From contig NC_091230.1 of the NCBI RefSeq assembly GCF_040958095.1, positions 13,700,395 through 13,764,394 of the forward strand: a stretch of 64,000 nt of DNA. Reading direction: 5' to 3'. Of this stretch, positions 2,385-63,352 are shown piece by piece (within the stretch, counting starts at the first letter, position 1; every line of letters starts with the position of its first letter). The translations under genes and the position numbers were made by a program. The notes under the pieces were generated by a model, which saw nothing but the letters and a program-made list of their open reading frames with translations, did not search any database and was not told the origin of the DNA. This DNA is from Procambarus clarkii (Eukaryota > Arthropoda > Malacostraca > Decapoda > Cambaridae).

Positions 2385-3236
2385 CTATCGGGCTCTATCA
2401 TATCTACACTTGAAACTGTGTATGGAGTCAGCCTCCACCACATCACTTCCTAATGCATTCCATTTGTCAACCACTCTGACGCTAAGAAAGTTCTTTCTAA
2501 TATCTCTGTGGCTCATTTGGGCACTCATTTTCCACCTGTGTCCCCTTGTACGTGTTCCCCTTGTGTTAAATAAACTGTCTTTATCTACCCTATCAATTCC
2601 CTTCAGAATCTTGAATGTGGTGATCATGTCCCCCCTAACTCTTCTGTCTTCCAGCGAAGTGAGGTTTAATTCCAGTAGTCTCTCCTCGTAGCTCATACCT
2701 CTCAGCTCGGGTACTAGTCTGGTGGCAAACCTTTGAATCTTTTCCAGTTTAGTCTTATCCTTGACTAGATATGGACTCCATGTTGGGGCTGCATACTTCA
2801 GGATTGGCCTGACATATGTGGTATACAAAGTTCTGAATGATTCTTTACACAAGTTTCTGAATGCCGTTCGTATGTTGGCCAGCCTGGCATATGCCGCTGA
2901 TGTTATCCGCTTGATATGTGCTGCCGGAGACAGGTCTGGCGTGATATCAACCCCCAAGTCTTTTTCCTTCTCTGACTTCTGAAGAATTTCCTCTCCCAGA
3001 TGATACCTTGTATCTGGCCTCCTGCTCCCTACACCTATCTTCATTACATTACATTTGGTTGGGTTAAACTCTAACAACCATTTGTTCGACCATTCCTTCA
3101 GCTTGTCTAGGTCTTCTTGAAGCCTCAAACAGTCCTCTTCTGTTTTAATCCTTCTCATAATTTTAGCATCGTCCGCAAACATTGAGAGAAATGAATCGAT
3201 ACCCTCTGAGAGATCATTTACATATATCAGAAACAA
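2385..3236 (-). pseudogene. LINE-A reverse transcriptase, palm to C-terminus
   Basis: A 283-codon frame begins in the palm just after the 'SGVPQGS' region. It has 'YVNDL', then the catalytic FADD box ('SMFADDAKI', 3159-3184), then the thumb and C-terminal part with 'TTYVRPILKYAAPTWSPY', 'LEKIQRFATRLVPELRGM' and 'EADSIHSFKCRYDRAR'. It is the continuation of the 3227-5818 frame, separated from it by a single-base shift near 3280. This C-terminal stretch is the segment that survives in most of the truncated LINE-A copies in the window. Confidence 0.88.
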
Positions 3237-5818
3237 GATAGGACCGAGTACAGAGCCCTGTGGGACTCCACTGGTGACTTCACGCCAGTCTCACCCCTCA
3301 CCGTAATTCTCTGCTTCCTATTGCTTAGATACTCCCTTATCCACTGGAGCACCTTACCAGCTACACCTGCCTGTCTCTCCAGCTTATGTACCAGCCTCTT
3401 ATGCGGTACTGTGTCAAAGGCTTTCCAACAATCCAAGAAAATGCAGTCTGCCCAGCCCTCTCTTTCTTGCTTAATCTTTGTCACCTGATCATAGAATTCT
3501 ATCAAGCTTGCAAGGCAAGATTTACCCTCCCTGAACCCATGTTGGCAATTTGTTACGAAGTCCCTTCTCTCCAGATGTGTTACCAGGTTTTTTCTCTCGA
3601 TCTTCTCCATCACCTTGCATGGTATACAAGTCAAGGACACTGGCCTGTAGTTTAGTGCCTCTTGCCTGTCGCCCTTTTTGTATATTGGGACCACATTCGC
3701 CGTCTTCCATATTTCTGGTAGGTCTCCCATCTCCAGTGACTTACTATACACTATGGAGAGTGGCAAGCAAAGTGCCTCTGCACACTCTTTCAGTATCCAT
3801 GGTGAGATCCCATCTGGACCAACAGCCTTTCTAACATCCAGATCCAGCAGGTGTCTCTTGACCTCCTCTCTCGTAATTTCGAACTCTTCCAAGGCCGCCT
3901 GGTTTACCTCCCTTTCTCCTAGCACAGTGACCTCACCTTGTTCTATTGTGAAGACCTCCTGGAACCTCTTGTTGAGTTTTTCACACACCTCTCTGTCATT
4001 CTCTGTATACCTGTCCTCGCCTGTTCGAAGTTTCAATACCTGTTCTTTCACTGTTGTTTTCCTTCTGATGTGACTGTGGAGTAGCTTTGGTTCGGTCTTG
4101 GCTTTGTTTGCTATATCATTTTCAAAACTTTTCTCTGCTTCTCTTCTCACCCTGACGTACTCATTCCTGGTTCTCTGGTATCTCTCTCTGCTTTCTGGTG
4201 TTCTGTTATTCCGGAAGTTCCTCCACGCCCTTTTGTTCAGTTTCTTCGCTTCCATACATGCCCTATTATACCATGGATTCTTCTGTTGCTTCTCGGATTT
4301 TTCCCTTTGGGCCGGGATGAACCTGTTAACTGCCTCCTGACACTTTTGGGTAACATAGTCCATCATACCCTGTACGGACTTATCTCTGAGGTCTGTGTCC
4401 CAAGGTATTTCACTTAGGAAACTTCTCATCTGTTCATAATTTCCCTTTCGGTATGCCAGCCTTTTGATTCCTAGTTCTTTTTTGGGGGAGATAAGTCCTA
4501 GCTCTACCAGGTACTCGAAGTTCAATACACTGTGGTCACTCATTCCCAAGGGCGCTTCCATCTTAACTTCTCTTATATCCCACTCATTTAGGGTAAATAT
4601 CAAATCAAGCATTGCTGGTTCATCTTCTCCTCTCATTCTTGTTGGTTCTTTGATGTGCTGGCTAAGAAAGTTTCTTGTTGCCACGTCCAGCAGCTTAGCC
4701 CTCCATGTTTCTGGTTCTCCATACGGGTCTCTGTTCTTCCAATCTATCTTCCCATGGTTGAAGTCTCCCATAATTAGTAGTCCAGATCCATTCCTGCTAG
4801 CAACAGAAGCTGCTCTTTCTATTATGTTAATGGTGGCCATGTTGTTTCTATCATATTCCTGTCTAGGTCTTCTGTCATTTGGTGGTGGATTATATATGAC
4901 TACGACTATAATTTTTTTCCCTCCATTTGTTACGGTACCTGTTATGTAGTCACTGAAACCTTCACAGATCTGAATATCCATCTCCTCAAAATCCCAGCCT
5001 TTTCTTACCAGCAGAGCTACACCACCCCCACCTCTTCCTTCCCTCTCTTTCCTCATAACATAATAGTCCTGTGGGAACACTGCGTTTGTTATCGTTTTCG
5101 TGATCTTTGTTTCTGTGAGGGCTATTATGTCTGGGTTTTCCTCTAGTACCCGTTCTCCAAGCTCATTTGCTTTATTTGTAATTCCATCTATGTTAGTGTA
5201 CATCGCTTTGAGGCTCACTTTCTTCTGTCCCTTCTCAAATCGCCTCCTTGGTGAGTGTTCTGCTGGTGGGTGAGGCTGTTCCATGGGTGTGAGGACCTGT
5301 GAGGTGGATAACAGGGTCTCAGAGGATACTGGGATGAGGGGCGGGGGATCCAGTGAAGGGGGAGGGACAGAGAGGGTATGGGGTGAAAGGGGAGGGAGGA
5401 CGGGAAGGAAAGGGGGGAGGGAGGACTCGGGAGGAGGGGAGGGGTAGAAGGGTGGGGATTGGGTGTGGGGGGAGGGAGATTTGGCTGAACATTTGAGTGG
5501 GTGCAGGGAGGGTTTGGGGTAGGGGGGGTTTTCTATGCAGAGGGGGGAGGCGGGGTTATCCTCCCTTCTGGTGTTACTGGGTAGCTGGTTGTGGGTTCCC
5601 CCCCTCGCTTCTAGGGGTGTTGTGTTGGGGCCTGTGACTTCCTGGTTTTCCCCTCTCGCCCTGCGCCTCTTCTTTGCTTCTGCCGCCACGGCTCTCTCCT
5701 CCCTTGTCATGTCTCTCTGGAGGAATACATTATATAATTTTCCCACGTTTTTCAGGGAGCTCTTCCTTGATAGGATCTTCTCCTTTGTGCTCTCGTTTGC
5801 AAACACTATCTTTATCAT
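3227..5818 (-). pseudogene. LINE-A polyprotein: ORF1 tail, endonuclease, RT fingers/palm
   Basis: An 863-codon frame. Residues 1-60 look like the end of an ORF1 RNA-binding domain followed by a basic stretch (AKKRRR). Residues 70-200 are proline-rich. An AP-type endonuclease runs from about 205 to 440, with 'LTETK' (catalytic Glu), 'MGDFNHG' near 353 and 'SDHS' near 428. RT then begins ('AVGPDGISPWILKE', 'LNYRPVSLT', 'GFREGKSC'), with the motif-A aspartates in 'FLDCWKAFDTVPH' near 796. The frame is lost just before the SGVPQGS motif. The frame is open upstream of the first Met to about 5880. Its activity is broken in this copy, although the domains themselves are well preserved, which suggests a fairly young insertion. 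Confidence 0.88.
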
Positions 5819-5873
5819 TCGGTCTCGGTCTTTGTTGTACCAACCTAGCCTGAAAACCTTCTCAATGCTATGC

Positions 5874-6084
5874 TCAACACCCTTCCATGTCTAGTGCCTT
5901 TAGTACTTCATTCACTGATGTTTTGTCCTTGTCATTCCACTCTGTCCTATTTGAGCCTTCCTGCTCTTTAATACCCACAGCAACCACTGATCTGTTCCTT
6001 TCCAGCAGTTGGCTAGTGGAGCGTGCCGCCTCTTGTGAGGTGGCTGCTTTCATGGCCACCTCCATCACTGCAGTCATTACTTCA
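5874..6084 (-). pseudogene. LINE-A ORF1-like fragment
   Basis: About 70 codons are open to the 5' truncation point ('NNSEVMTAVMEV...'). They join the downstream polyprotein after a one-base shift near 5874. The downstream sequence 'EHSIEKVFRLGWYNKDRDR' continues the same domain in the other frame. The likely role is the RNA-binding part of the LINE ribonucleoprotein. It is too short to classify. Confidence 0.65.
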
Positions 6085-7061: not shown

Positions 7062-8245
7062 TGAAATTACAGTAACATGATATATTTTTTTGAACAAGCC
7101 TTGAACCAGAACAAGGTAATTCCAGGAGACTAGGGGTATCCAGGACGAAATTAAAGCATTGTTTAATTTTTTCACTCAACTCTTGAAGCACTTGAAGCTC
7201 TGTGCTGAAAATTCATGAGTAATGAAGTTTTGTGAATTGCTCTTTGACCTACTTCCTCCACAGCCTGGGTTATGTCATGGGCTCTGGCACGAGGCAGGTA
7301 AAAACACCCACCATACAGGGAGTCCTGACATAAAACTCCACCAGTTATCCATTCATCATTTAATCACCTTTCAACACGTGTCAAAGTGAAAGACTTCTTT
7401 GTTCATATTTAAAAGAGGAAACCTATTGTCAATTTCGACATGACAGACATTAACTTTGTCATATTCACTGTGTTTCACGCTAGATGAAATTCGGTATTTT
7501 CATGTGATGAATAAATGTCTTCAATGACTTTATACTCGGTAAAATTAGAGTACATTGCCTCATTTTGCAATACATCGATTTGTTATTACCATTAATATTT
7601 GTCAACTTTCATGTACATTGCTTTTTCAAGCGGGGACAAAATAGAAAATTTTTCTCTTCAATCTGAACATTCATGGTCAACATTCATCCAAAAGAAAAAT
7701 GTTTTCAGATTTATACAATATCGTTTTCAAGGGTAAAATCTTTCTCGAAAAAAAAATTTCCCAGCTCCAATTTATTAGCTACCAACTGGTTCGAGGAATA
7801 TACCTGCATTCAGAATTGTTTAAATATATCATCCCATAAACCTTTCACGACTCGTGTCACACATGGGGAAGCTGGCAGGGAATTATTTATCTGAGAACCA
7901 TTGCATCCTGTGCTTAATTATTTTTTAGTTTGCGAAAATGATATCGCTGAGGTTAATGGGGTAATTTTATTTTATTAACTCTGCTAATTAAAACATATAA
8001 CAATCAAAATCTCTCACTCTCTCTCGACTGATTTTATTTGCTGAGATTATAACACGTGGAAGAACAAAAGGATATATAATGCGCTGTCTAGCGGCCTTTT
8101 GTTTTCTCTGACCAGATCTCAGGGTAAGTTTCCAAGGCTTACCGTTACGGTGTGTGGGTGGACGGTGTAATGATAGGTGTAGGCTGTTTAGTGGTGGAGT
8201 GTGTGTGTGTGTGTGTTGCTGTGGTTGGTGCGGTGTGTTTGTCCC
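7062..8245. other. AT-rich sequence, no gene recognised
   Basis: AT-rich unique-looking sequence with homopolymer runs. I see no conserved frame, tRNA-like box or repeat shared with other parts of the window. Confidence 0.5.
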
Positions 8246-9772
8246 CCACAAACACAGCACCCTACTCCCTCCACAATTACAGCACTCTACACCCCCACAA
8301 ACACAGCACCCTACACCCCCACAAACACAGCACCCGACACCCCCACAAACACAGCACCCTACACCCCCACAAACACAGCACCCGACACCCCCACAAACAC
8401 AGCACCCTACACCCCCACAAACACAGCACCCTACACCCCCACAAACACAGCACCCTACACCCTACACAAACACAGCACCCTACACCTCTACAAACACAGC
8501 ACCCTACACCACAAACACAGCACCCTACACCCCCACAAACACAGCACCCTACACCCCCACAAACACAGCACCCTACACCCCCACAAACACAGCACCCTAC
8601 ACCCTACACAAACACAGCACCCTACACCTCTACAAACACAGCACCCTACACCACAAACACAGCACCCTACACCCCCACAAACACAGCACCCTTACACCCC
8701 TACAAACACAGCACCCTACACCTCCACAAACACAGCGCCCTACACCACAAACACAGCACCCTACACCTCTACAAACACAGCACCCTACACCCCCACAAAC
8801 ACAGCACCCTACACCCTACACAAACACAGCACCCTACACCTCTACAAACACAGCACCCTACACTACAAACACAGCACCCTACACCCCCACAAACAGAGCA
8901 CCCTTACACCTCTACAAACACAGCACCCTACACCCCCACAAACACAGCACCCTACACCCCCACAAACACAGCACCCTACACCCACACAAACACAGCACCC
9001 TACACCCCCACAAACAGAGCACCCTTACACCTCTACAAACACAACACCCTACACCCCCACAAACACAGCACCCTACACCCCCCACAAACACAGCACCCTA
9101 CACCCCCACACAAACACAGCACCCTACACCCCCACAAACACAGCACCCTACACCTCCACAAACACAGCACCCGACACCCCCACAAACACAGCACCCTACA
9201 CCCCCACAAACACAGCACCCTACACCTCCACAAACACAGCACCCTACACCACAAACACAGCACCCTACACCCCCACAAACACAGCACCCTTACACCCCTG
9301 CAAACACAGCACCCTACACCTCCACAAACACAGCACCCTACACCCCCACAAACACAGCACCCTACACCCCCACAAACACAGCACCCTACACCCCCACACA
9401 AACACAGCACCCTACACCCCCACAAACACAGCACCCTACACCTCCACAAACACAGCACCCTACACCCCCACAAACACAGCGCCCGACACCCCCCACAAAC
9501 ACAGCACCCTACACCCCCCCCCCCACACACACACAAACACAGCACCCTACACCCCCCCCCCCCACACACAAACACAGCACCCTACACCCCCCCCCCCCCC
9601 CACACACAAACACAGCACCCTACACCCCCCCCCACACACAAACACAGCACCCTACACCCCCCCACACACAAACACAGCACCCTACACCCCCCCCCCACAC
9701 ACAAACACAGCACCCTACACCCCCCCCCCACACACAAACACAGCACCCTACACCCCCCCCCCCCACCAACAC
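8246..9772. repeat. 24-bp minisatellite, about 63 units
   Basis: The unit length is 24 bp (for example 8297-8320, core 'acaaacacagcaccctaca' plus a C run). Because 24 is a multiple of 3 and the unit has no stop in any plus frame, three overlapping frames stay open for about 550-577 codons. These are artefacts of composition. Variants with shortened or lengthened C runs mark the right end (9510-9770). Confidence 0.93.
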
Positions 9773-10440
9773 AACGCACCACACTACATTCGTCGAATTC
9801 CCGGGAAACGCCATTTCCGGGTCATTTCCCTCTTTGTCACAAAGAATTAAGATAGATGATCGAGTATTAACACGAAAAGAAAAATAGTTTTGATACGATA
9901 AGACGAGGATAAAGCCACAAGAGCGACATAGAAGCCAGATGATTGGGAGGAAGATTGCACAATTGTTTACGATTCAGGAGACAAGAAGAACGATTTGGAC
10001 AATTTATTTTACGAGTGAAAAGAAGAACTATTGGATTTTTGTTTCTGTTTTTATCTATGACACGACGTTAACAACAACATTTTGAGAAAAGATAGATAGC
10101 ACGACAATTGCATCATGGTGCTGAACCACAGAACGACTCATTCAGCAGTAGTCATCAAGGTCTTAATTACTTGTCTTTTAGTGAAATGCAGAATTGTATT
10201 ATATCAAATTCTTATTAATGTTATTATACATTAAGGTTTTGTGCATTGGCATCGGGTTAAGATAGGTCTGATGTTTTGGCTCTGTTGTACAAATAAATCA
10301 TTATTTGTATTTATATATCCTATTCTTCACATTATCTAAAGGCTCGTTAATTTATCAGCCGTCTCCTGTTGCTTAACGACAAATACTTTATAAGTGAAAG
10401 GATGGGAAAGGAATTTTTAGAGGAAAGCGCCAAGATATTA
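9773..10440. other. Unique sequence, no gene recognised
   Basis: AT-rich sequence between the minisatellite and a SINE. Short frames only, with no recognisable motif. Confidence 0.5.
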
Positions 10441-16145: not shown

Positions 16146-16224
16146 AAAAGAAGGTGGCATAACGAGCTAAAAAGTATGTTCAAGTGAAGAAATAATTGTT
16201 TTAGAAATTATTTGGCTGGTCGTG

Positions 16225-16690
16225 GTGATGAAGGGAGGGAATGTGGTGGTGGTGATGGAGGGTAGTGGTGGTGGTGGTGATAGAGGGTAGTGGTGGTGGT
16301 GGTGATGATGGAGGGTAGTGGTGGTGGTGATGGAGGGTAGTGGTGGTGGTGGTGATGGAGGGTAGTGGTGGTGGTGATGATGGAGGGTAGTGGTGGTGGT
16401 GATGGAGGGTAGTGGTGGTGGTGGTGATGGAGGGTAGTGGTGGTGGTGATGATGGAGGGTAGTGGTGGTGGTGATGGAGGGTAGTGGTGGTGGTGGTGAT
16501 GGAGGGTAGTGGTGGTGGTGGTGATGGAGGGTAGTGGTGGTGGTGATGATGGAGGGTAGTGGTGGTGGTGATGATGGAGGGTAGTGGTGGTGGTGATGAT
16601 GGAGGGTAGTGGTGGTGGTGATGGTGATGGAGGGTAGTGGTGGTGGTGATGGAGGATAGTGGTGGTGGTAGTGGTGATAGAAGGAGAGAG
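16225..16690. repeat. GGT/GAT-rich minisatellite
   Basis: Units of about 24-27 bp built from 'ggagggtagtggtggtggt' with one or two GAT triplets. The minus strand gives His/Pro/Thr-rich frames that are translation artefacts. Confidence 0.9.
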
Positions 16691-16739
16691 GGTAGTGGTC
16701 GTGGCGATGAAGAAGAAAGAGAAAGTAATTATAATACCA

Positions 16740-17262
16740 CATGCCAATGATTATACTTATACTCATTGTTTCATCACGGTCATATGTAATTGAACCTTTC
16801 TCACCCTCCTACTGTATCTTACAGCAGGAAGTTCATGTTTTCATCATGTTCTTTCTGCACTCTTCCCATGTGAGTCAAAAGATTTTTGCAATTTATATTT
16901 TGTTTCCCCCTGGGATTAATTTAATTAGAAACATATATCAAATTTGCCACGTAAATTTTGTATACATTTTTATAACAAACTTTTATTTAACCTTAGTGAA
17001 TTTGAGCACGAGGTTTTTCGTACATTAAATTTTCAAGGACATTTTCCCCGGCAATATTTCTTCCTCATCCGTCGATGAAATTTTTAGGGAGCCGTATTGA
17101 CACATTCGCTTTTATCCGTTGTTAATCCATTAGTTTCTGCCTCGGCTCCGACACGTATTGGTGGTGTTCTCTTAGCACTGAAGCTGGCTACACGAACTCC
17201 GTCATATATTATGTAACGTTTGCTTCCTGCTTAATGCACTCGTCGAGAGAGATGGGATGGAG
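16740..17262. other. AT-rich unique sequence, no gene recognised
   Basis: No conserved frame or repeat seen between the two minisatellites. Confidence 0.5.
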
Positions 17263-17272
17263 TGTGTGTATT

Positions 17273-18512
17273 GGTGGGCGTAAATGTGGGTGGGGTGGTT
17301 TTAGTGGGCGTACATGTGGGTGGGGGTGGTCTTGGTGGGCGTACATGTGGGTGGGGTGGTCTTAGTGGGCGTACATGTGGGTGGGGGTGGTCTTGTTGGG
17401 CGTACATGTGGGTGGGGTGGTCTTGGTGGACGTACATGTGGGTGGGGTGGTCTTGATGGGCGTACATGTGGGTGGGGTGGTCTTGGTGGGCGTACATGTG
17501 GGTGGGGTGGTCTTGGTGGGCGTACATGTGGGTGGGGTGGTCTTGGTGGGCGTACATGTGAGTGGGGGTGGTCTTGTTGGGCGTACATGTGGGTGGGGTG
17601 GTCTTGGTGGGCGTACATGTGGGTGGGGTGGTCTTGATGGGCGTACATGTGGGTGGGGTGGTCTTGGTGGGCGTACATGTGGGTGGGGTGGTCTTGGTGG
17701 GCGTACATGTGAGTGGGGGTGGTCTTGTTGGGCGTACATGTGGGTGGGGGTGGTCTTGGTGGGCGTACATGTGGGTGGGGTGGTCTTGGTGGGCGTACAT
17801 GTGGGTGGGGTGGTCTTGGTGGGCGTACATGTGGGTGGGGTGGTCTTGGTGGGCGTACATGTGAGTGGGGTGGTCTTGTTGGGCGTACATGTGGGTGGGG
17901 GTGGTCTTGGTGGGCGTACATGTGGGTGGGGTGGTCTTGGTGGGCGTACATGTGGGTGGGGTGGTCTTGGTGGGTGTACATGTGAGTGGGGGTGGTCTTG
18001 TTGGGCGTACATGTGGGTGGGGATGGTCTTGGTGGGTGTACATGTGAGTGGGGGTGGTCTTGTTGGGCGTACATGTGGGTGGGGTGGTCTTGGTGGGCGT
18101 ACATGTGAGTGGGGGTGGTCTTGGTGGGTGTACATGTGGGTGGGGTGGTCTTGGTGGGCGTACATGTGGGTGGGGTGGTCTTGGTGGGCGTACATGTGGG
18201 TGGGGGTGGTCTTGTTGGGCGTACATGTGGGTGGGGGTGGTCTTGTTGGGCGTACATGTGGGTGGGGGTGGTCTTGGTGGGTGTACATGTGGGTGGGGGT
18301 GGTCTTGGTGGGCGTACATGTGGGTGGGGTGGTCTTGTTGGGCGTACATGTGGGTGGGGGTGGTCTTGGTGGGCGTACATGTGGGTGGAGTGGTCTTGGT
18401 GGGCGTACATGTGAGTGGGGGTGGTCTTGGTGGGTGTACATGTGGGTGGGGTGGTCTTGGTGGGCGTACATGTGGGTGGGGTGGTCTTGGTGGGCGTACA
18501 TGTGGGTGGGGA
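17273..18512. repeat. 30-bp minisatellite, about 41 units
   Basis: The unit is 30 bp (core 'gggcgtacatgtgggtgggg'), with 31-bp variants that have one more G. Open frames on both strands (up to about 430 codons) follow from the unit length and are not genes. Confidence 0.93.
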
Positions 18513-18791
18513 GGTGTTGATGTGCAGTACATGTTTCAATGTTTTGCTTATGGATAATTGGAAATACTTAAACTAAACTAATTGTCATCGCTTGTAGATA
18601 TATTGACGGAGATGAATTTAAGGAAACTGAAGGTTATGAATTCATAGTTTTCTTGACGATGCTGGACATCACAAGGGAGTCGTTATTAGTAAGATCTTAT
18701 AAGGAAGATTTATATACTCCAGGACGGCGCAGTGTTACGGGTGATATGATGGAAATGTGACAAAAAAGGTACAAGGTAACATGAGAGACTT

Positions 18792-22374: not shown

Positions 22375-22673
22375 TGGGGCCTCGTAGCCTGGTGGATAGG
22401 GTGCAGGACTCGTAATTCTGTGGCGCGGGTTCGATTCCCGCACGAGGCAGAAACAAATGGGCAAAGTTTCTTTCACCTTGAATGCCCCTGTTACCTAGCA
22501 GTAAATAGGTACCTGGGAGTTAGTCAGCTGTCACGGGCTGCTTCATGGTGTGTGTGTGTGTGTGTGGTGTGAAAAAAAAGTAGTTAGTAAACAGTTGATT
22601 GACAGTTGAGAGGCGGGCCGAAAGAGCAAAGCTCAACCCCCGCAAACACAACTAGGTGAATACAACTAGGTGA

Positions 22674-40214: not shown

Positions 40215-40663
40215 AAATGAGTAAAAACTACATCTTGTATTGGGCCCCTGCGAAAGGGAGGTGGAACTTTCACTGATGATAACAAAGAAATGAGCGAAAT
40301 ACTGAGGAATCAGTACGACTGTTTTCAGCAAGCCACTAAACATTGATAATCCAAATGAATTTTTCATGAATGTGACACCAACATGAAATTATATATCAGA
40401 TGTCACCCTATCCCCACTGACCATTTGGTCCGGGAGACATCTCCTGTCACGCAGGGTGCAGTTGCGCCTCCACAGATCTCCAGTATCATCTTTTGATACT
40501 GGTGATGGCTCAAAAGGGCCACCACTTACGGGCTATTCATGCCCGTGCCACCTCTTGGGTGGCTTAATCTTCATCAATCAATCTATCCTCACTGGATTTT
40601 AAAGAAGCCATATAAAGTATGCCTATGCACTGTGCACCGTGTCCTGCTTCTTGGAACTCTATG
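40215..40663 (+). mobile_element. LINE-D fragment carrying a six-hairpin retroposon
   Basis: Plus-strand pre-RT coding ('GPLRKGGGTFTDDNKEMSEI', 'NPNEFFMN') matches the minus-strand element at 57657-58885 ('MKVEDPDNFFM'). The fragment is interrupted by 40420-40582. Confidence 0.65.
40420..40582 (+). mobile_element. HT-CAAT retroposon, full copy
   Basis: A 163-bp body flanked by a 12-bp duplication, ctatccccactg/ctatcctcactg (40408-40419 and 40583-40594, 11 of 12). Six hairpins follow in series: GACC/GGTC (40419-40430), GGGAGA/TCTCCT (40432-40445), GGTGC/GCGCC (40455-40468), CCAGTATCA/TGATACTGG (40480-40502), ACGGGC/GCCCGT (40528-40546), GCCACC/GGTGGC (40547-40563). The tail is ATCAATCAAT. I see no tRNA-like A or B box and no coding content. 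Confidence 0.82.
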
Positions 40664-41124: not shown

Positions 41125-41296
41125 CACCAACCATTTGGTCCGGGAGACATCTCCCGTCACGCAGGGTGCAGTCACACCTCCACAGATCTCCAGTATCATC
41201 TATAGATACTGGTGATGGCTCAAAAGGGCCACCACTTACGGGCTATTCATGCCCGTGCCACCTTTAGGGTGGCTTAATCTTCATCAATCAATCAAT
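41125..41296 (+). mobile_element. HT-CAAT retroposon, full copy
   Basis: The same six-hairpin body. Flanking duplication cttataactg at 41115-41124 and 41297-41306 (exact). Hairpin 4 reads CCAGTATC...GATACTGG with an altered loop. The tail is CAATCAATCAAT. Confidence 0.85.
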
Positions 41297-46566: not shown

Positions 46567-47245
46567 GATAAGAACATAAGAACAAAGGTAACTGCAGAAG
46601 GCCTATTGGCCCATACGAGGCAGCTCCTATCTATAACGACCCAATCCCACTCATATACATGTCCAACCCACGCTTGAAACAATCGAGGGACCCCACCTCC
46701 ACAGTGTTACGCGGCAATTGGTTTCACAAATCAACAACCCTGTTACTGAACCAGTATTTACCCAAGTCTTTCCTAAATCTAAACTTATCCAATTTATACC
46801 CATTGTTATACACCAAGTGTCTTATTACTAACGCTTCGATAAATAAATTTCAGTGTCCTATTTGCCTAATTACGAACATTCATGCATTGAATTTTTTGGT
46901 TTTAAATTCTTACAAATCATGACTCCCAGATCCCATTCGCAATCCGACTTTGCAACACCATACAACTCACATCTTGTAACTGTCATCATTACCGAGCCTC
47001 AAAACCTTACATTTGTCAGCATTAAACAGCATCTGCCAATCTCTTGACCAGTTCAAGACTATTAAGATTGTCTTGAAGTGATAATGAGTCTTTTTCATTG
47101 TTTATTTTTCACTAGATTTTTGTATCATCGGCAAATTTGCAAATATTGCTGCTCAAACCTTCATCTAAAGCATTTATATATACTGTATTATGATTAACAG
47201 AGGCGCCAGGACAGAGCCTTGAGACACTCCACTGACACCAGGTAC
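46567..47245 (-). mobile_element. LINE-C copy, inverted, internally shortened
   Basis: 3' end at 46567 ('aagaacataagaacaaaggt'). The RT C-terminal region reads to 46807, then jumps to palm-thumb sequence (46810-47220, 'FADDTK'-type on the minus strand) and ends at the SVPG-type motif. An internal segment is missing. Confidence 0.8.
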
Positions 47246-47655
47246 AGAGGCGCCACTATTACACTATGTACTAGAATGTTCAGCAACAGAAGCCTAGCGC
47301 ATCAAGCTCAACATTCAAGCAACAAGAGCAGCGCTGCATTACATGCAACATCCACAGCGAGTACAATGGTTAGGAAAGCAGTTGAAGAATGGGACACACT
47401 GGTGAAGACTGTACACCTATATCCGCCACAAGGTAATGATGCTATTTAAACAAGACTAGAAACATTGCGTTACAACAGAAGCGGAAAAGAAACGATGGGA
47501 AAAGGAGGCAACCCCACCTCCATTTAAAACTTTGATCCAAATATCACCGTCACAAAGTTATCGCGAATAACACAACTCAATTACGGGCTCACCATAGCCC
47601 GTGCTACATGGACATTTCATTCTGAGTAGCTAAATCTTTACAACTATTACCGAAA
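47246..47655 (+). mobile_element. LINE-F C-terminus with two-hairpin AAC-type tail
   Basis: Frame-broken coding includes 'APLLHYVLECSATEA', the CCHC-like C-terminal motif of RNase H-bearing LINEs, and ends near 47450. The 3' UTR runs to a terminal module at 47584-47655: ACGGGCT/AGCCCGT hairpin, GCTAC...GTAGC hairpin, then 'taaatctttacaac'. This copy suggests that the HT-AAC mini-elements are extreme 5'-truncations of LINE-F. Confidence 0.6.
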
Positions 47656-48080: not shown

Positions 48081-48163
48081 CAACAGGCGCCGATGACACC
48101 TCTAATATTGGCAACTCGTCATCCAGTGATACATAAAACAATCCAATTCAGCCTAGAGTCGAC

Positions 48164-48330
48164 CATTTGGTCCGGGAGACATCTCCCGTCACGCAGGGTG
48201 CAGTTGCACCTCCACAGATCTCCAGTATCAGCTCTTGATACTGGTAATGGCTCAAAAGGTCCACCACTTACGGGCTATTCATGCCCGTGCTACCTCTTGG
48301 CTGGCTTAATCTTCATCAATCAATCAGTTC
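48164..48330 (+). mobile_element. HT-CAAT retroposon, full-length copy
   Basis: Starts gaccatttggtc and contains all six hairpin positions. Hairpin 6 is weakened (gctacc...gctggc). Tail ATCAATCAATCA. No clear target duplication. Confidence 0.8.
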
Positions 48331-49060: not shown

Positions 49061-49134
49061 AGCTGTATATTTTAGTGTGAAAACGTTAGTGATGGGACAT
49101 ACACAGCCCCGCTCCTGTGCCAGGTAAGTCCACT

Positions 49135-49201
49135 ACGGGCTCACCATAGCCCGTGCTACTTGGAACTTTTGTTCTGAGTAGCTGAATCTAAAACAACAAC
49201 A
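49135..49201 (+). mobile_element. HT-AAC mini-element (two-hairpin tail only)
   Basis: Hairpin acgggctcaccatagcccgt, then a 12-bp stem GCTACTTGGAAC/GTTCTGAGTAGC (two G-T pairs) with a TTTT loop, then 'tgaatctaaaacaacaaca'. It starts exactly at the first hairpin. Confidence 0.75.
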
Positions 49202-49212
49202 GTTAATGATGA

Positions 49213-49370
49213 GCGGGAAACATCTCCCGTCACGCAGGGTGCAGTCGCACCTCCACAGATCTCCAGTATCATCTATTGGTACTGGTAATGGCTCAAAAGG
49301 GCCACCACTTACGGGCTATTCATGCCCGTGCCACCTTTTGGGTGGCTTAATCTTCATCAATCAATCAATC
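49213..49370 (+). mobile_element. HT-CAAT retroposon, near-full copy
   Basis: Lacks the first hairpin. Flanking duplication ttaatgatga/ttaatgttga (49203-49212 and 49371-49380, 9 of 10). It inserted right after the AAC tail of the previous element. Confidence 0.82.
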
Positions 49371-49647
49371 TTAATGTTGAGGTAATTAGCAAGCAAGGTA
49401 AAAAGAGCTAAATCTCACTTGCCCCGTAGGCAGTGATATAGGTAAGTACTATTAGTACAGTGAAGAGTGGATAGCCTACGGTGCTTCAGCTGGTAAGCTG
49501 GATAGATCTGGTTACCCCCCCCCCCACCACCACCCTGAGGGGATGTTTTGACCAATCCTCGACCGCACTTGGTCAGGTGACTTAGGGCCACGCCCAGGTA
49601 CCTGGGCTGGTCTCTGGTACGCTACAAGGCCTGGTGTTATTGTTGGC

Positions 49648-49709
49648 TTACGGGCTATTCATGCCCGTGCCACCTTTTGGATGGCTTAATCTTCATCAAT
49701 CAATTAATC
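49648..49709 (+). mobile_element. HT-CAAT mini-copy: last two hairpins plus tail
   Basis: 62 bp beginning at the ACGGGC/GCCCGT hairpin. Flanked by an exact 10-bp duplication tattgttggc (49638-49647 and 49710-49719). Confidence 0.85.
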
Positions 49710-50945: not shown

Positions 50946-51221
50946 GTATACTTTATTATCTGTCGTGTAGTAGTGTTGAGGGGCGACCATACCACAAGCT
51001 GGTGTGAGGTGTAAGCCTTTACCCTCCTTTACCTTACTGGTTTAGAGTCCACTCATTAACTACAACCCTCGCTAAGTGCCTCGGACACCAGTCATCAACC
51101 CTTTACGTAATACCTACGAAACCTTTACATCTTTCTTTAAACATAGAGGCTTTGTTCACAGTTATTAAACACTTTGAGGGATGACCATACAAATGGTTTA
51201 CTCACTCCCGACATGTCTATA
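50946..51221. other. No gene recognised
   Basis: Short unique stretch between LINE-B and the 20-bp array. Confidence 0.45.
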
Positions 51222-52816
51222 CACCCATATACACCCAGGGTCACCCACATACACCCAGGGTCACCCACATACACCCAGGGTCACCCACATACACCCAGGG
51301 TCACCCACATACACCCAGGGTCACCCACATACACCCAGGGACACCCACATACAATCAGGGTCACCCACATACACCCATGGTCACCCACATACACCCCAGG
51401 GTCACCCACATACACCCAGGGTCACCCACATACACCCAGGGTCACCCACATACACCCAGGGTCACCCACATACACCCAGGGTTACCCACATACAATCAGG
51501 GTCACCCACATACACCCCAGGGTCACCCACATACACCCAGGGTCACCCACATACACCCAGGGTCACCCACATACACCCAGGGTCACCCACATACAATCAG
51601 GGTCACCCACATACACCCAGGGTCACCCACTTACACCCAGGGTCACCCACATACACCCCAGGGTCACCCACATACACCCAGGGTCACCCATATACACCCA
51701 GGGGTCACCCATATACACCCAAGGTCACCCACATACACCGAGGGGTCACCCATATACACCCAAGGTCACCCACATACACCCAGGGGTCACCCACATACAC
51801 CCAGGGTCACCCACATACACCCAGGGTCACCCACATACACCCAGGGTCACCCACATACACCCAGGGTCACCCACATACACCCAGGAGTCACCCACATACA
51901 CCCAGGGTCACCCACATACACCCAGGGGTCACCCACATACACCCAGGGTCACCCACATACACCCAGGGTCACCCACATACACCCAGGGTCACCCACATAC
52001 ACCCAGGAGTCACCCACATACACCCAGGGTCACCCACTTACACCCAGGGGTCACCCACATACACCCAGGGGTCACCCACATACACCCAGGGTCACCCATA
52101 TACACCCAAGGTCACCCACATACACCCAGGAGTCACCCATATACACCCAAGGTCACCCACATACACCCAGGGGTCACCCACATACACCCAGGGTCACCCA
52201 CATACACCCAGGGTCACCCACATACACCCAGGAGTCACCCACATACACCCAGGAGTCACCCACATACACCCAGGAGTCACCCACATACACACAGAGTCAC
52301 CCAGGGTCACCCACATACACCCAGGGTCACCCACATACACACAGAGTCACCCAGAGTCACCCACATACACCCAGGGTCACCCACATACACCCAGGGGTCA
52401 CCCACATACACCCAGGGTCACCCACTTACACCCAGGGGTCACCCACATACACCCAGGGGTCACCCACATACACCCAGGGTCACCCATATACACCCAAGGT
52501 CACCCACATACACCCAGGAGTCACCCATATACACCCAAGGTCACCCACATACACCCAGGGGTCACCCACATACACCCAGGGTCACCCACATACACCCAGG
52601 AGTCACCCACATACACCCAGGAGTCACCCACATACACCCAGGAGTCACCCACATACACCCAGGAGTCACCCAGGGTCACCCACATACACCCAGGGTCACC
52701 CACATACACACAGAGTCACCCAGAGTCACCCACATACACCCAGGGTCACCCACATACACCCAGGGGTCACCCACATACACCCAGGGGTCACCCACATACA
52801 CCCAGGGTCACCCACA
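51222..52816. repeat. 20/21-bp minisatellite, about 79 units, with higher-order structure
   Basis: Unit cacccacatacacccagggt, with 21-bp variants ('aggggt', 'aggagt'). Blocks of variant units recur at about 370-410 bp (for example 'cacttac' units near 51628, 52035 and 52423, and paired 'cagagt' units near 52340 and 52710). Frames up to 614 codons run through it and are artefacts. Confidence 0.93.
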
Positions 52817-52978
52817 TAAAGAAGAAGAAGTCTCACGTTATCACCAAACATGACGCTCTCTCACCAGACAACACTATGCTAAACAATCATGCTAAACAAT
52901 TTAAGCCAAATGCGCTTGGTACATCAATAATGGAGCAGCGAGCATCAGGCCGTACAGTCCTGGCGACTGGAGGACCCC

Positions 52979-53048
52979 GATTACGGGCTCACCATAGCCC
53001 GTGCTACATGGACACTTCGTTCTGAGTAGCTAAATCTAAAACAACAGT
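52979..53048 (+). mobile_element. HT-AAC mini-element
   Basis: Hairpin acgggctcaccatagcccgt, then GCTAC...GTAGC, then 'taaatctaaaacaaca'. It starts at the first hairpin, like 47584 and 49135. Confidence 0.72.
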
Positions 53049-53137: not shown

Positions 53138-53391
53138 GAGGCCTCGTAGCCTGGTGGATAGCGCGCAGGACTCGTAATTCTGTGGCGCGGGTTCGATTCC
53201 CGCACGAGGCAGAAACAAATGGGCAAAGTTTCTTTCACCCTGAATGCCCCTGTTACCTAGCAGTAAATAGGTACTTGGGTGTTAGTCAGCTGTCACGGGC
53301 TGCTTCCTGGGGGTGGAGGCCTGGTCGAGGACCGGGCCGCGGGGACACTAAAAGCCCCGAAATCATCTCAAGATAACCTCAAGATAACCTC
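53138..53391 (+). mobile_element. SINE-1 copy (head type b) with LINE-B-type tail
   Basis: The head matches 22375-22449 almost exactly (B box 'gggttcgattcccgc'), but the tail is the LINE-B terminus ('gaccgggccgcggggacact', 'caagataacct' twice). The same head and body therefore occur with two different LINE tails. Confidence 0.9.
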
Positions 53392-55559: not shown

Positions 55560-56320
55560 CACACTGCCACGACCACACAAGGGTGGACGACCCCGCTACT
55601 CTTCCCATTACACAACTTGATGGCACTGAACGCACATAGTAGTAACACCCAGAAAATAGTCAGTGATAGTCGAATGAATGTTTTAGCTGCTAAAGAAAAC
55701 AGATTTGAAATTAAGTTCCTATGGATACCATCACATGTTGGCATCTCAAGGCATGACACTGTTGATATGCTTGCTAAGTCAGCCTGCAGAAAACCAGTGG
55801 TAGAAATTGATATGGGTGTTTCATTAGCAGTGACAAAGAGAATACTTAAACAAATATCTAATGAAGATCTCACCGACCTAACAAATTCTCAAAGACCTGA
55901 AAGTTGTAGCATTAAATATTATGATAGATATCGTGAGGAGACATTCACATATGGGACTAATAGAACAAGAACTCGGCAATGTGATGTTATAGTGGCCAGA
56001 ATACGCCTGGGATATAGACGTATCTGGCAGCTTTCTCAAAACCCAAATGTCGAGTACACAATGTGTCAACTTTGTGAAAGAGAAAACATGCACTCTCTTG
56101 AACATTATATTGTAGAATGTCCCATACTGACTGACTTTCGCCCTCCTGGGCTAAGGTATGCTGAACTCTGTAGTTACTATATGAGTACTGGAACACTTGA
56201 TGATATATTGGACATGTACCCAAGATTGACCATGTAATGTATCAATTATACAATGTATGTGATGTAACTAAATAACCTGAGCTTGTAAAAGCATCTTAAT
56301 CACTTTCAGTGGTTAAGTGA
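55560..56320 (+). mobile_element. LINE-E C-terminus: RNase H and zinc-knuckle end
   Basis: The end of a non-LTR retrotransposon that carries RNase H (I/Jockey-type group). The copy is 5'-truncated within RNase H. Its 3' UTR ends with hairpin cttaatcac/gtggttaag (56294-56302 with 56309-56317). Confidence 0.8.
55620..56237 (+). pseudogene. RNase H / C-terminal domain of LINE-E
   Basis: About 205 codons remain open to the stop. They have the RNase H signature 'WIPSHVGISRHDTVDMLAK' and a C-terminal C-x2-C-x9-H-x4-C motif (CQLCERENMHSLEHYIVEC) typical of the group. The frame is open upstream to 55404, but that part does not resemble LINE protein and is probably flank. The front half of RNase H and all of RT are absent. 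Confidence 0.82.
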
Positions 56321-60543: not shown

Positions 60544-60760
60544 GGCAGCCACCACCTGCTGCTGGTATATAGCGACAATAAGAGCAACCTGTACCCACTA
60601 TCTGTACGTGTCGTACCCAGTAACCATACAAGGGATGTACCGTACACATACACTGTACCCCGCCTGGTGGGTGTACAGTGTACTCTAGGTACACTGACAG
60701 TTTACCTATCACCGTAATTATGTTCAGAGGTAAAGTACACCTAGAGGTTGGCGGGTAAGG

Positions 60761-60818
60761 ATTGATTGATAAAGATTAAGCCACCCAAGAGGTGGTACGG
60801 GCATGAATAGCCCGTAAG
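60761..60818 (-). mobile_element. HT-CAAT mini-copy: last two hairpins plus tail
   Basis: 58 bp on the minus strand beginning 'cttacgggctattcatgccc' and ending in the CAAT tail. Exact 10-bp duplication gcgggtaagg at 60751-60760 and 60819-60828. Confidence 0.87.
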
Positions 60819-61253
60819 CGGGTAAGGTATTGTGGTGGCCTTAATAACCCCTTCGTGATTGATAGGTGGTAACCCCAAGACCAAACCTTAAGGTGGAGTA
60901 GTGACCAGGTGAGTGACAACCTTCTGGGAAGGTGTAGAGCAGGTACACCCCTGCCCCGAGGGGTACCAGTGACTCACCGGGGTACCGAGTATTCTCTCCC
61001 AGGAAGTGTTGATAACGGTCCAGTAAACTGTTGTCACTGGTGTATTATAAACTTGGTGGTGGGAAATGTCACGGTCCCTAACACTCGGGATACTGAGGTA
61101 TACTGGTATACCGGGTACACTTCCCAGTGTATATATAGCCCAAATTGCCTTGTGTATAGCTTCTAAAGCCTCTTAGTCTTATATTGGTGTACACATCAAG
61201 CTGTGTGTGGAGTGTTTGTGTACACGTGTGGAAGTGTGTAGACTTGAGGGTGG

Positions 61254-63180
61254 TGTGGCGCAGCATTATGTGGTGGAGTGTGGCGCAGCATTATGTGGTG
61301 GAGTGTGGCGCAGCATTATGTGGTGGAGTGTGGCGCAGCATTATGTGGTGGAGTGTGGCGCAGCATCCTGTGGTGGAGTGTGGCGCAGCGTTATGTGGTG
61401 GAGTGTGGCGCAGCATTATGTGGTGGAGTGTGGCGCAGCATTATGTGGTGGAGTGTGGCGCAGCATCATGTGGTGGAGTGTGGCGCAGCATTATGTGGAG
61501 TGTGGCGCAGCATTATGTGGTGGAGTGTGGCGCAGCATTATGTGGTGGAGTGTGGCACAGCACCATGTGGTGGAGTGTGGCGCAGCATTATGTGGTGGAG
61601 TGTGGCACAGCACCATGTGGTGGAGTGTGGTACAGCACCATGTGGTGGAGTGTGGCACAGCACCATGTGGTGGAGTGTGGCACAGCACCATGTGGTGGAG
61701 TGTGGCACAGCACCAAGTGGTGGAGTGTGGCACAGCACCATGTGGTGGAGTGTGGCACAGCACCATGTGGTGGAGTGTGGCACAGCACCATGTGGTGGAG
61801 TGTGGCACAGCACCATGTGGTGGAGTGTGGCACAGCACCATGTGGTGGAGTGTGGCACAGCACCATGTGGTGGAGTGTGGCACAGCACCATGTGGTGGAG
61901 TGTGGCACAGCACCATGTGGTGGAGTGTGGCACAGCACCATGTGGTGGAGTGTGGCACAGCACCATGTGGTGGAGTGTGGCACAGCACCATGTGGTGGAG
62001 TGTGGCACAGCACCATGTGGTGGAGTGTGGCACAGCACCATGTGGTGGAGTGTGGCACAGCACCATGTGGTGGAGTGTGGCACAGCACCATGTGGTGGAG
62101 TGTGGCACAGCACCATGTGGTGGAGTGTGGCGCAGCATCATGTGGAGTGTGGCACAGCACCATGTGGTGGAGTGTGGCACAGCACCATGTGGTGGAGTGT
62201 GGCACAGCACCATGTGGTGGAGTGTGGCACAGCACCATGTGGTGGAGTGTGGCACAGCACCATGTGGTGGAGTGTGGCACAACACCATGTGGTGGAGTGT
62301 GGCACAGCACCATGTGGTGGAGTGTGGCGCAGCATTATGTGGTGGAGTGTGGCACAGCACCATGTGGTGGAGTGTGGCACAGCACCATGTGGTGGAGTGT
62401 GGCGCAGCATCATGTGGTGGAGTGTGGCACAGCACCATGTGGTGGAGTGTGGCACAGCACCATGTGGTGGAGTGTGGCACAGCACCATGTGGTGGAGTGT
62501 GGCACAGCACCATGTGGTGGAGTGTGGCGCAGCATTATGTGGTGGAGTGTGGCACAGCATTATGTGGTGGAGTGTGGCGCAGCATTATGTGGTGGAGTGT
62601 GGCGCAGCATTATGTGGTGGAGTGTGGCACAGCACCATGTGGTGGAGTGTGGCGCAGCATTATGTGGTGGAGTGTGGCGCAGCATCATGTGGTGGAGTGT
62701 GGCACAGCACAATGTGGTGGAGTGTGGCACAGCACCATGTGGTGGAGTGTGGCACAGCACCATGTGGTGGAGTGTGGCGCAGCATTATGTGGTGGAGTGT
62801 GGCGCAGCACCATGTGGTGGAGTGTGGCACAGCACCATGTGGTGGAGTGTGGCGCAGCATTATGTGGTGGAGTGTTGCACAGCACCATGTGGTGGAGTGT
62901 GGCGCAGCATTATGTGGTGGAGTGTGGCACAGCATTATGTGGTGGAGTGTGGCGCAGCATTATGTGGTGGAGTGTGGCGCAACGTCATGTGGTGGAGTGT
63001 GGCGCAGCATCATGTGGTGGAGTGTGGCGCAGCATCATGTGGTGGAGTGTGGCGCAGCATCATGTGGTGGAGTGTGGCGCAGCATCATGTGGTGGAGTGT
63101 GGCGCAGCATCATGTGGTGGAGTGTGGCGCAGCATCATGTGGTGGAGAGTGGCGCAGCATCATGTGGTGGAGTGTGGCGC
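61254..63180. repeat. 25-bp minisatellite, about 77 units
   Basis: Unit of 25 bp ('gtggcgcagcattatgtggt' plus ggagt). Two main unit types, gcgcagcattatg and gcacagcaccatg, are arranged in blocks. The left edge is type 1, a uniform type-2 core runs from about 61720 to 62110, the part after that is mixed, and the right edge is gcgcagcatcatg. All three plus frames are open for 650-688 codons because three units make 75 bp without stops. They are not genes. Confidence 0.93.
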
Positions 63181-63352
63181 ACCTCACACTATGGCTCATA
63201 TCAACACTCTCCGCATATACAGCAAGATGATCCGCGCAGGATTTAAATGAGGTAATCCTTTTGCGTTAAGTGGCGGGGTGAGATGTGACGTCACGAGCCC
63301 GTACAAGGGTGTTGGGGGCGGCGTGCACCCGTCTCTCCCTCCGGGGGGGGGG

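Follow-up and report, generated by a model that had tools for sequence, protein, structure and literature searches.

The small repeat at positions 40420 to 40582 of the window, by which we mean the whole 64-kb stretch of DNA analyzed here, belongs to a family (family A) that is very probably a non-autonomous, LINE-dependent, SINE-like retroposon. Its elements would consist of one to several six-hairpin units of ~155-165 nt, with a trimer of ~500 nt as a recurrent full-length form, and the probable helper is a LINE of the same genome that carries an APE-type endonuclease, a reverse transcriptase (RT), and RNase H. The two meet at the 3' end: the last two hairpins of A, the string CTTAATCTT(C/T)ATC, and the (CAAT)n tail match the 3' end of the LINE. 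The 165-nt copy is one unit of an element that also occurs as trimers.

Searches of the window with blastn and nhmmer found four near-complete units (c1 to c4) and two short copies (s5 and s6), with 92%-97% identity among them. A first-pass annotation of this DNA had reported three full-length, one near-full, and two short copies, with six consecutive stem-loops and a CAAT tail; the copies lie where it had placed them, and all 40 consensus pairs of the stem-loops are standard. The copies and one adjoining fragment are as follows:

40420..40582, + strand: A copy c1, a single unit with six hairpins and a (CAAT)n tail; flanks CTATCCCCACTG and CTATCCTCACTG
41125..41296, + strand: A copy c2, with five extra 5' bases ahead of ACCATTTGG; flanked by CTTATAACTG twice; blastn/nhmmer bounds 41130-41296
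48108..48161, + strand: partner-LINE-like fragment adjoining c3; residues 459-476 of the 620-aa frame of that LINE, 16 of 18 identical, E = 7e-4
48162..48324, + strand: A copy c3, without a duplication; its 5' flank is the LINE coding-sequence fragment
49213..49370, + strand: A copy c4, 5'-truncated by ~11 nt, inserted beside the end of family B copy b2
49647..49709, + strand: short A copy s5, only the 3' module and tail
60760..60821, - strand: short A copy s6, only the 3' module and tail

Flanking duplications, which had been claimed for four of the six copies at 10-12 bp, are indeed present, but in five of the six (c1, c2, c4, s5, and s6) and at ~10-13 bp, some with a mismatch; random flanks were as good in 0, 3, 2, 0, and 0 of 400 trials, respectively. 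The flanks of c3 hold no duplication (194 of 400 random flanks are equally good), perhaps because the LINE fragment at 48108-48161 abuts this copy, an arrangement that would fit a chimaeric or rearranged insertion. The (CAAT)n tail varies in length among the copies and 5' truncation is present; together with the flanking duplications, these features are typical of target-primed reverse transcription. Many genomic copies extend ~10 nt further at the 5' end (CCATYTGGTCACCAYTTGGTCC) than c1 and c3 do.

The longest ATG-started frame in c1 to c4 is only 20-23 aa, so the unit holds no ORF and the description of it as noncoding is borne out. Family A is short, noncoding, and interspersed, with target duplications in five of the six window copies and eight of 16 trimers, and its 3' end is common to a LINE of the same genome, as in stringent-type SINEs. 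It appears to work like a SINE but without the usual head, because the unit consensus has no B box and Rfam offers no credible relative. The comparison with Rfam, proposed in the first-pass annotation and run at E values up to 1, gave no credible family for the unit (c1/c2), one trimer (locus L046), or one B copy (locus L048, with no match of any kind), and no head from tRNA, 7SL, or 5S RNA in these sequences; nor did ARAGORN find a tRNA at the window copies. Two Rfam matches, both below threshold, were rejected: mir-3167, which lies outside the copies (E = 0.82), and sR58, found on the trimer's minus strand with 15.6 bits where the gathering score is 55 (E = 0.89). The further claim that both A and B boxes are missing holds for the B box only, as hairpin 4 of the unit consensus contains TGGCTCAAAAGG, which matches an A-box-like pattern exactly (such a match occurs in 22 of 1000 shuffles). 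Exact patterns had no match in viral contigs and prokaryote genomes, and strings from the element were absent from the paper texts searched. The literature consulted, PMC10454600 included, does not describe family A, which may be listed in Repbase or Dfam.

The window also holds tRNA-headed repeats that are short like A; Rfam and ARAGORN find the tRNA in these and none in the window copies of A and B. Matches resembling tRNA-Thr(CGT) lie at 22379-22449 and 53141-53211, the second of which resembles a tRNA-derived SINE head.

The assembly to which the window belongs (4.03 Gb in 2308 contigs) was searched for further copies. The A unit as query gave 496 first-look candidates, and the 40 that were scored had main matches at 94%-100% identity; the trimer gave 3415, the 40 scored matching at 95%-100% over 480-541 nt. 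The ~500-nt trimer, with flanking duplications of its own, occurs in at least 40 places in the assembly. Two or more near-complete A units stand head to tail in 16 of 38 fetched loci, or 12 once near-duplicates are merged, and the largest rows comprise 11 (L015) and 12 (L016) units or part-units on one strand, contiguous or nearly so. Because several loci are near-duplicates of one another (L015, L016, and L020, which form a cluster on contig C8; L021 and L023; L029 and L038; L010 to L012), such counts overstate the number of independent insertion events. Three kinds of unit can be told apart in the four loci read: a first unit with the leader CCATYTGGTCACCAYTTGGTCC, a middle unit with linkers, and a last unit with a TTAATC end and the tail. 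In some trimers (L009, L014, and L046), the first unit ends in CAATCAATT.

Sixteen trimers were picked from the best trimer matches, a choice that makes them silent on the frequency of trimers relative to single units. All but one begin with CCATYTGGTCACCA, which is also where the query starts, and their printed upstream flanks differ. Eight (L069, L070, L072, L074, L076, L078, L080, and L083) show a clear flanking duplication at both ends, and two (L073 and L082) show none, with 39 and 62 of 200 shuffles equally good. As for the rest, the match consists only of tail-like sequence in L068, L075, L077, and L079 and only of a CATC-rich stretch in L071, and in L081 it lies 17 nt from the start. 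Separately, the flanks of L017, L059, L062, and L070 share a near-identical target, CCTC[AT]TCACA or a variant of it, beside CGACTTGAGAATGG, which suggests that this repeat is an insertion hot spot.

A second family, B, has an (AAC)n tail and a two-hairpin 3' module homologous to that of A, composed of the hairpins ACGGGCT..AGCCCGT and GCTAC..GTAGC and then CTNAATCT ahead of the tail. In the window it is represented by three features, with LINE remains upstream of one of them:

47244..47428, + strand: decayed LINE C-terminus; two blocks (24 and 29 aa) with 58% and 52% identity to the C-terminus of the partner LINE, E = 7e-8
47580..47646, + strand: B module b1, with decayed LINE coding sequence upstream of it; duplication not clear (45 of 400)
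49097..49205, + strand: B copy b2, a ~105-nt retroposon with an (AAC)n tail; duplication marginal (17 of 400); many genomic copies of the same length
52980..53046, + strand: B module b3, whose start almost coincides with that of b1 within the module; duplication not clear (228 of 400)

A profile built from B alone matches four of the six A copies (E = 1.3e-4 to 0.01); thus, the A and B modules are homologous. A covariance model (R1) of the nine A and B modules recovers those nine in the window and no tenth. Of ten pairs compared between the A and B modules, one has a two-sided change (C-G to T-A, in hairpin 6); 26 of 500 shuffles reach its three cells, and 443 of 500 reach the count of one such pair. 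The decayed LINE C-terminus upstream of b1 makes the 3' end of a decayed B-lineage LINE the best reading of this module.

Genome-wide, the B query gave 1812 first-look candidates, and the 40 scored had main matches at 98%-100%. Twenty B loci were cut and 16 printed (plus-strand matches only). Matches begin at query base 1 in 12 of the 16 and at base 3 or 6 in the others, the flanks look unrelated, and flanking duplications can be seen by eye in eight (L048, L049, L050, L051, L052, L054, L065, and L066). On these common starts, differing flanks, and duplications, B is best read as a young retroposon of ~105 nt. As part of the joint explanation that we favor, we are also largely confident that it is a sister retroposon of A, with a related module and an AAC tail. 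B elements (L048:1501-1606 and window 49097-49205) contain CAGGTAAGT, which resembles a 5' splice site and may reflect chance or a role of B as exon donor.

Elements of the two families can be stacked at a single target. The sequence TTARTGWTGRG has three occurrences in the window, before b2, at the junction of b2 and c4, and after c4:

49086..49096, + strand: target copy 1 (TTAGTGATGGG), before b2
49203..49213, + strand: target copy 2 (TTAATGATGAG), between b2 and c4
49371..49381, + strand: target copy 3 (TTAATGTTGAG), after c4

Similar arrangements occur elsewhere in the genome. In L015, GTCGGCACC appears four times, preceding and separating consecutive A elements and preceding a B element, with one junction lacking it; GAATAGCAC appears three times in L030; and two A elements next to the LINE in L033 are each followed by TTCCTCATCA. 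L014 has GTCATGCAG at three junctions (by eye) and three matches to GTCATGCAGGG, one of them inside a unit. Simple tandem duplication does not account in full for these stacks, since both L015 and the window show an alternation of families and of unit numbers. Either re-nicking of a regenerated target or coupled integration of multiple templates would explain them, and the data favor neither. A bolder extension, to which we give rather low odds, is that the LINE integrates several templates in a coupled manner, either in a single event or because its own target copy is preferentially re-nicked, so that A multimers, B, and LINE sequences are strung at one site with the target regenerated between them. 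The two-hairpin module would then be their shared ticket, and the up to 18 hairpins of a trimer would be repeated protein-binding or packaging sites.

Rows of this kind also raise the question of whether A is a tandem, satellite-like repeat spread by unequal exchange, its single copies being remnants. The rows of up to 11 (L015) and 12 (L016) units on one strand and the near-duplicate clusters of contig C8 (L015, L016, and L020) agree with such an origin, but the scattered single units and the trimers have their own, differing flanking duplications, and on these we reject it. Further, the clusters mix family B with A elements of unequal unit number, and most elements of the L015 cluster end in a tail that is followed by target sequence. 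We therefore regard a satellite as an improbable source of family A.

Retroposition with a helper is supported by the partner LINE. Its module is identical to that of c1 at 63 of 66 bases and to that of c2 at 62, and a tail of the same kind follows. What stands ahead of the A module in L033 (at two places), in L018, and in the near-duplicate loci L029 and L038 is a LINE C-terminus with a short 3' UTR in place of the A body. The LINE frame of L033 is open for 620 aa, with Pfam matches to RVT_1 (7.8e-17) and RNase_H (7.6e-12), and its stop codon is followed by ~50 nt of 3' UTR and then by the module and tail. L067, which adjoins L033, has an APE-type endonuclease frame (Exo_endo_phos, 6.7e-17) upstream of the L033 frame; endonuclease, RT, and RNase H thus stand together in one element (L067 plus L033, contig C19). 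In the LINE copy read, endonuclease and RT are in different frames, so this copy is not intact. The LINE probably belongs to the I superfamily and presumably lies outside the L2 clade. Because this genome holds a LINE that ends in the module and tail seen in A, the first-pass proposal that the repeat is mobilized in trans by a LINE is well supported.

By the R1 model search, LINE frames in the window that have RT or endonuclease matches in Pfam carry no module. One LINE, at 2385-5890 on the minus strand, has endonuclease and RT in two overlapping frames and a 3' end of another type; we take it to be CR1-like. Another LINE fragment (55689-56198) has RNase H and a C-terminal region resembling a zinc knuckle, with 31% identity to the partner LINE over 177 aa, and its frame matches no Pfam family at E up to 0.001. 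Long repetitive open frames at 8112-9887, 16167-18572, 51147-53025, and 61160-63250 apparently arose by chance in tandem arrays.

Given a module common to both, A might be merely a truncated or internally deleted part of the coding LINE, without an independent origin. The last 65 nt of A are LINE-like, and the starts of s5, s6, b1, and b3 fall within ~2 nt of one point in the module, so that shared starts are possible without a transcription start. A module copy also sits immediately ahead of the endonuclease frame (L067 1571-1627). As TTCCTCATCA flanks this copy on either side (by eye), we read it as an independent short insertion, although it could be part of the LINE. Against a LINE part, the A body (L046 1990-2432) has no BLAST match to the LINE sequence examined except at module copies, the ~50 nt directly ahead of the LINE module are an unrelated 3' UTR, and 15 of 16 trimers start with CCATYTGGTCACCA behind differing upstream flanks (the query, too, starts there). 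The 5' part of B matches the LINE sequence only weakly, over 17 nt (E = 0.023). The unmatched body and the unrelated 3' UTR rule out, for the LINE sequence examined, the simplest version, that A is just the 3' UTR of this LINE; the 3' UTR of a coding LINE is what the first-pass annotation had named as the alternative to its proposal. An origin as a truncated or deleted LINE part is in our view very unlikely.

The first-pass annotation also held that the fold of the unit matters. The four near-complete copies fold stably (z = -5.6, -5.8, -4.4, and -6.6 for c1 to c4, with 0 of 200 shuffles equally stable for each), but when 163-nt stretches are drawn at random from the window, which is rich in repeats, 7, 7, 11, and 10 of 300 reach the same z, so strong folding by itself is not unusual here. 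Among the window copies, none of the 40 pairs changes on both sides, 4 of 40 show one-sided (wobble) variation, and 7 of 186 cells are broken. The change GGTGC/GCGCC, which had been offered as one that keeps pairing, is a one-sided G-U wobble and not covariation. Stems (10 of 80 sites variable) and loops (7 of 83) vary to a similar degree (p = 0.45).

A larger set comprised 152 distinct units, drawn from the 176 of 222 genomic matches that have at least 135 letters. In this set, the share of pairing cells is 97.24%, compared with 96.96% on average in shuffles (0 of 500 reach the observed share), double changes occur in 4 of 40 pairs (equaled by 36 of 500), and there are 19 double-change cells (0 of 500), 14 of which are one inherited change in hairpin 1, G-C to A-T, carried by 14 of the 152 units. 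Reduced at 3% divergence to 62 units, the set retains 96.51% pairing cells against 96.33% (4 of 500), three double-change pairs (44 of 500), and five double-change cells (2 of 500); pair types are no more numerous than in shuffles (295 of 500). Related sequences inflate double-change counts; we therefore read these statistics as suggestive only. Selection on the six-hairpin fold is only weakly supported. The reading of A as a functional gene for a structured ncRNA, with retrocopies scattered through the genome, fits the stable fold of c1 to c4 and the double change in hairpin 1, but, with no credible Rfam relative and with window stems that vary like loops, it is highly improbable.

For a LINE-dependent retroposon, the following course can be proposed. 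RNA of family A would be transcribed, and the LINE protein would bind its two-hairpin 3' module, as suggested by the common module and by how stringent-type LINEs work. The endonuclease would then nick a target and the RNA would be reverse-transcribed from the tail inwards, a direction to which the duplications that differ from copy to copy, the 5' truncation, and the variable tails all point. Copies of A, B, and the LINE are seen to pile up head to tail, probably because a used target is often re-used. Single units may come from template switching or from loss between repeated units.

The literature describes a stringent type of relation in which a short element and a LINE are paired through a common 3' stem-loop (PMC4176376, PMC3747384), the stem-loop being recognized by the cognate LINE protein (PMC4176376). 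The eel UnaL2 and zebrafish ZfL2 LINEs and their partner SINEs resemble family A in that a 3' stem-loop and tail are shared with a LINE of the same genome. Unlike those pairs, A has two adjacent hairpins, a partner with RNase H that presumably lies outside the L2 clade, and no tRNA-like head that we could find. Dimeric and multimeric SINEs are likewise on record, among them Alu and the Dip/B1 multimers of a jerboa, with tandems of up to eight (PMC10702118). These resemble A in having several units per mobile element; A differs as a ~500-nt trimer of one six-hairpin unit for which no tRNA or 7SL origin was found, and in stacks that mix two families and LINE sequence. Family A thus differs from the known kinds of SINE/LINE pair in its repeated six-hairpin head, for which no small-RNA origin was found, in its sister family, and in its stacking at one target.

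Taken together, one genome holds a SINE-like family of repeated hairpins, for which no head from tRNA, 7SL, or 5S RNA was found, along with its sister family and a LINE that is a candidate helper. This makes testable what a LINE protein needs at the 3' end of its template and why insertions stack at one target, and recognition of families A and B would aid the naming of repeats in this genome, probably that of a decapod.
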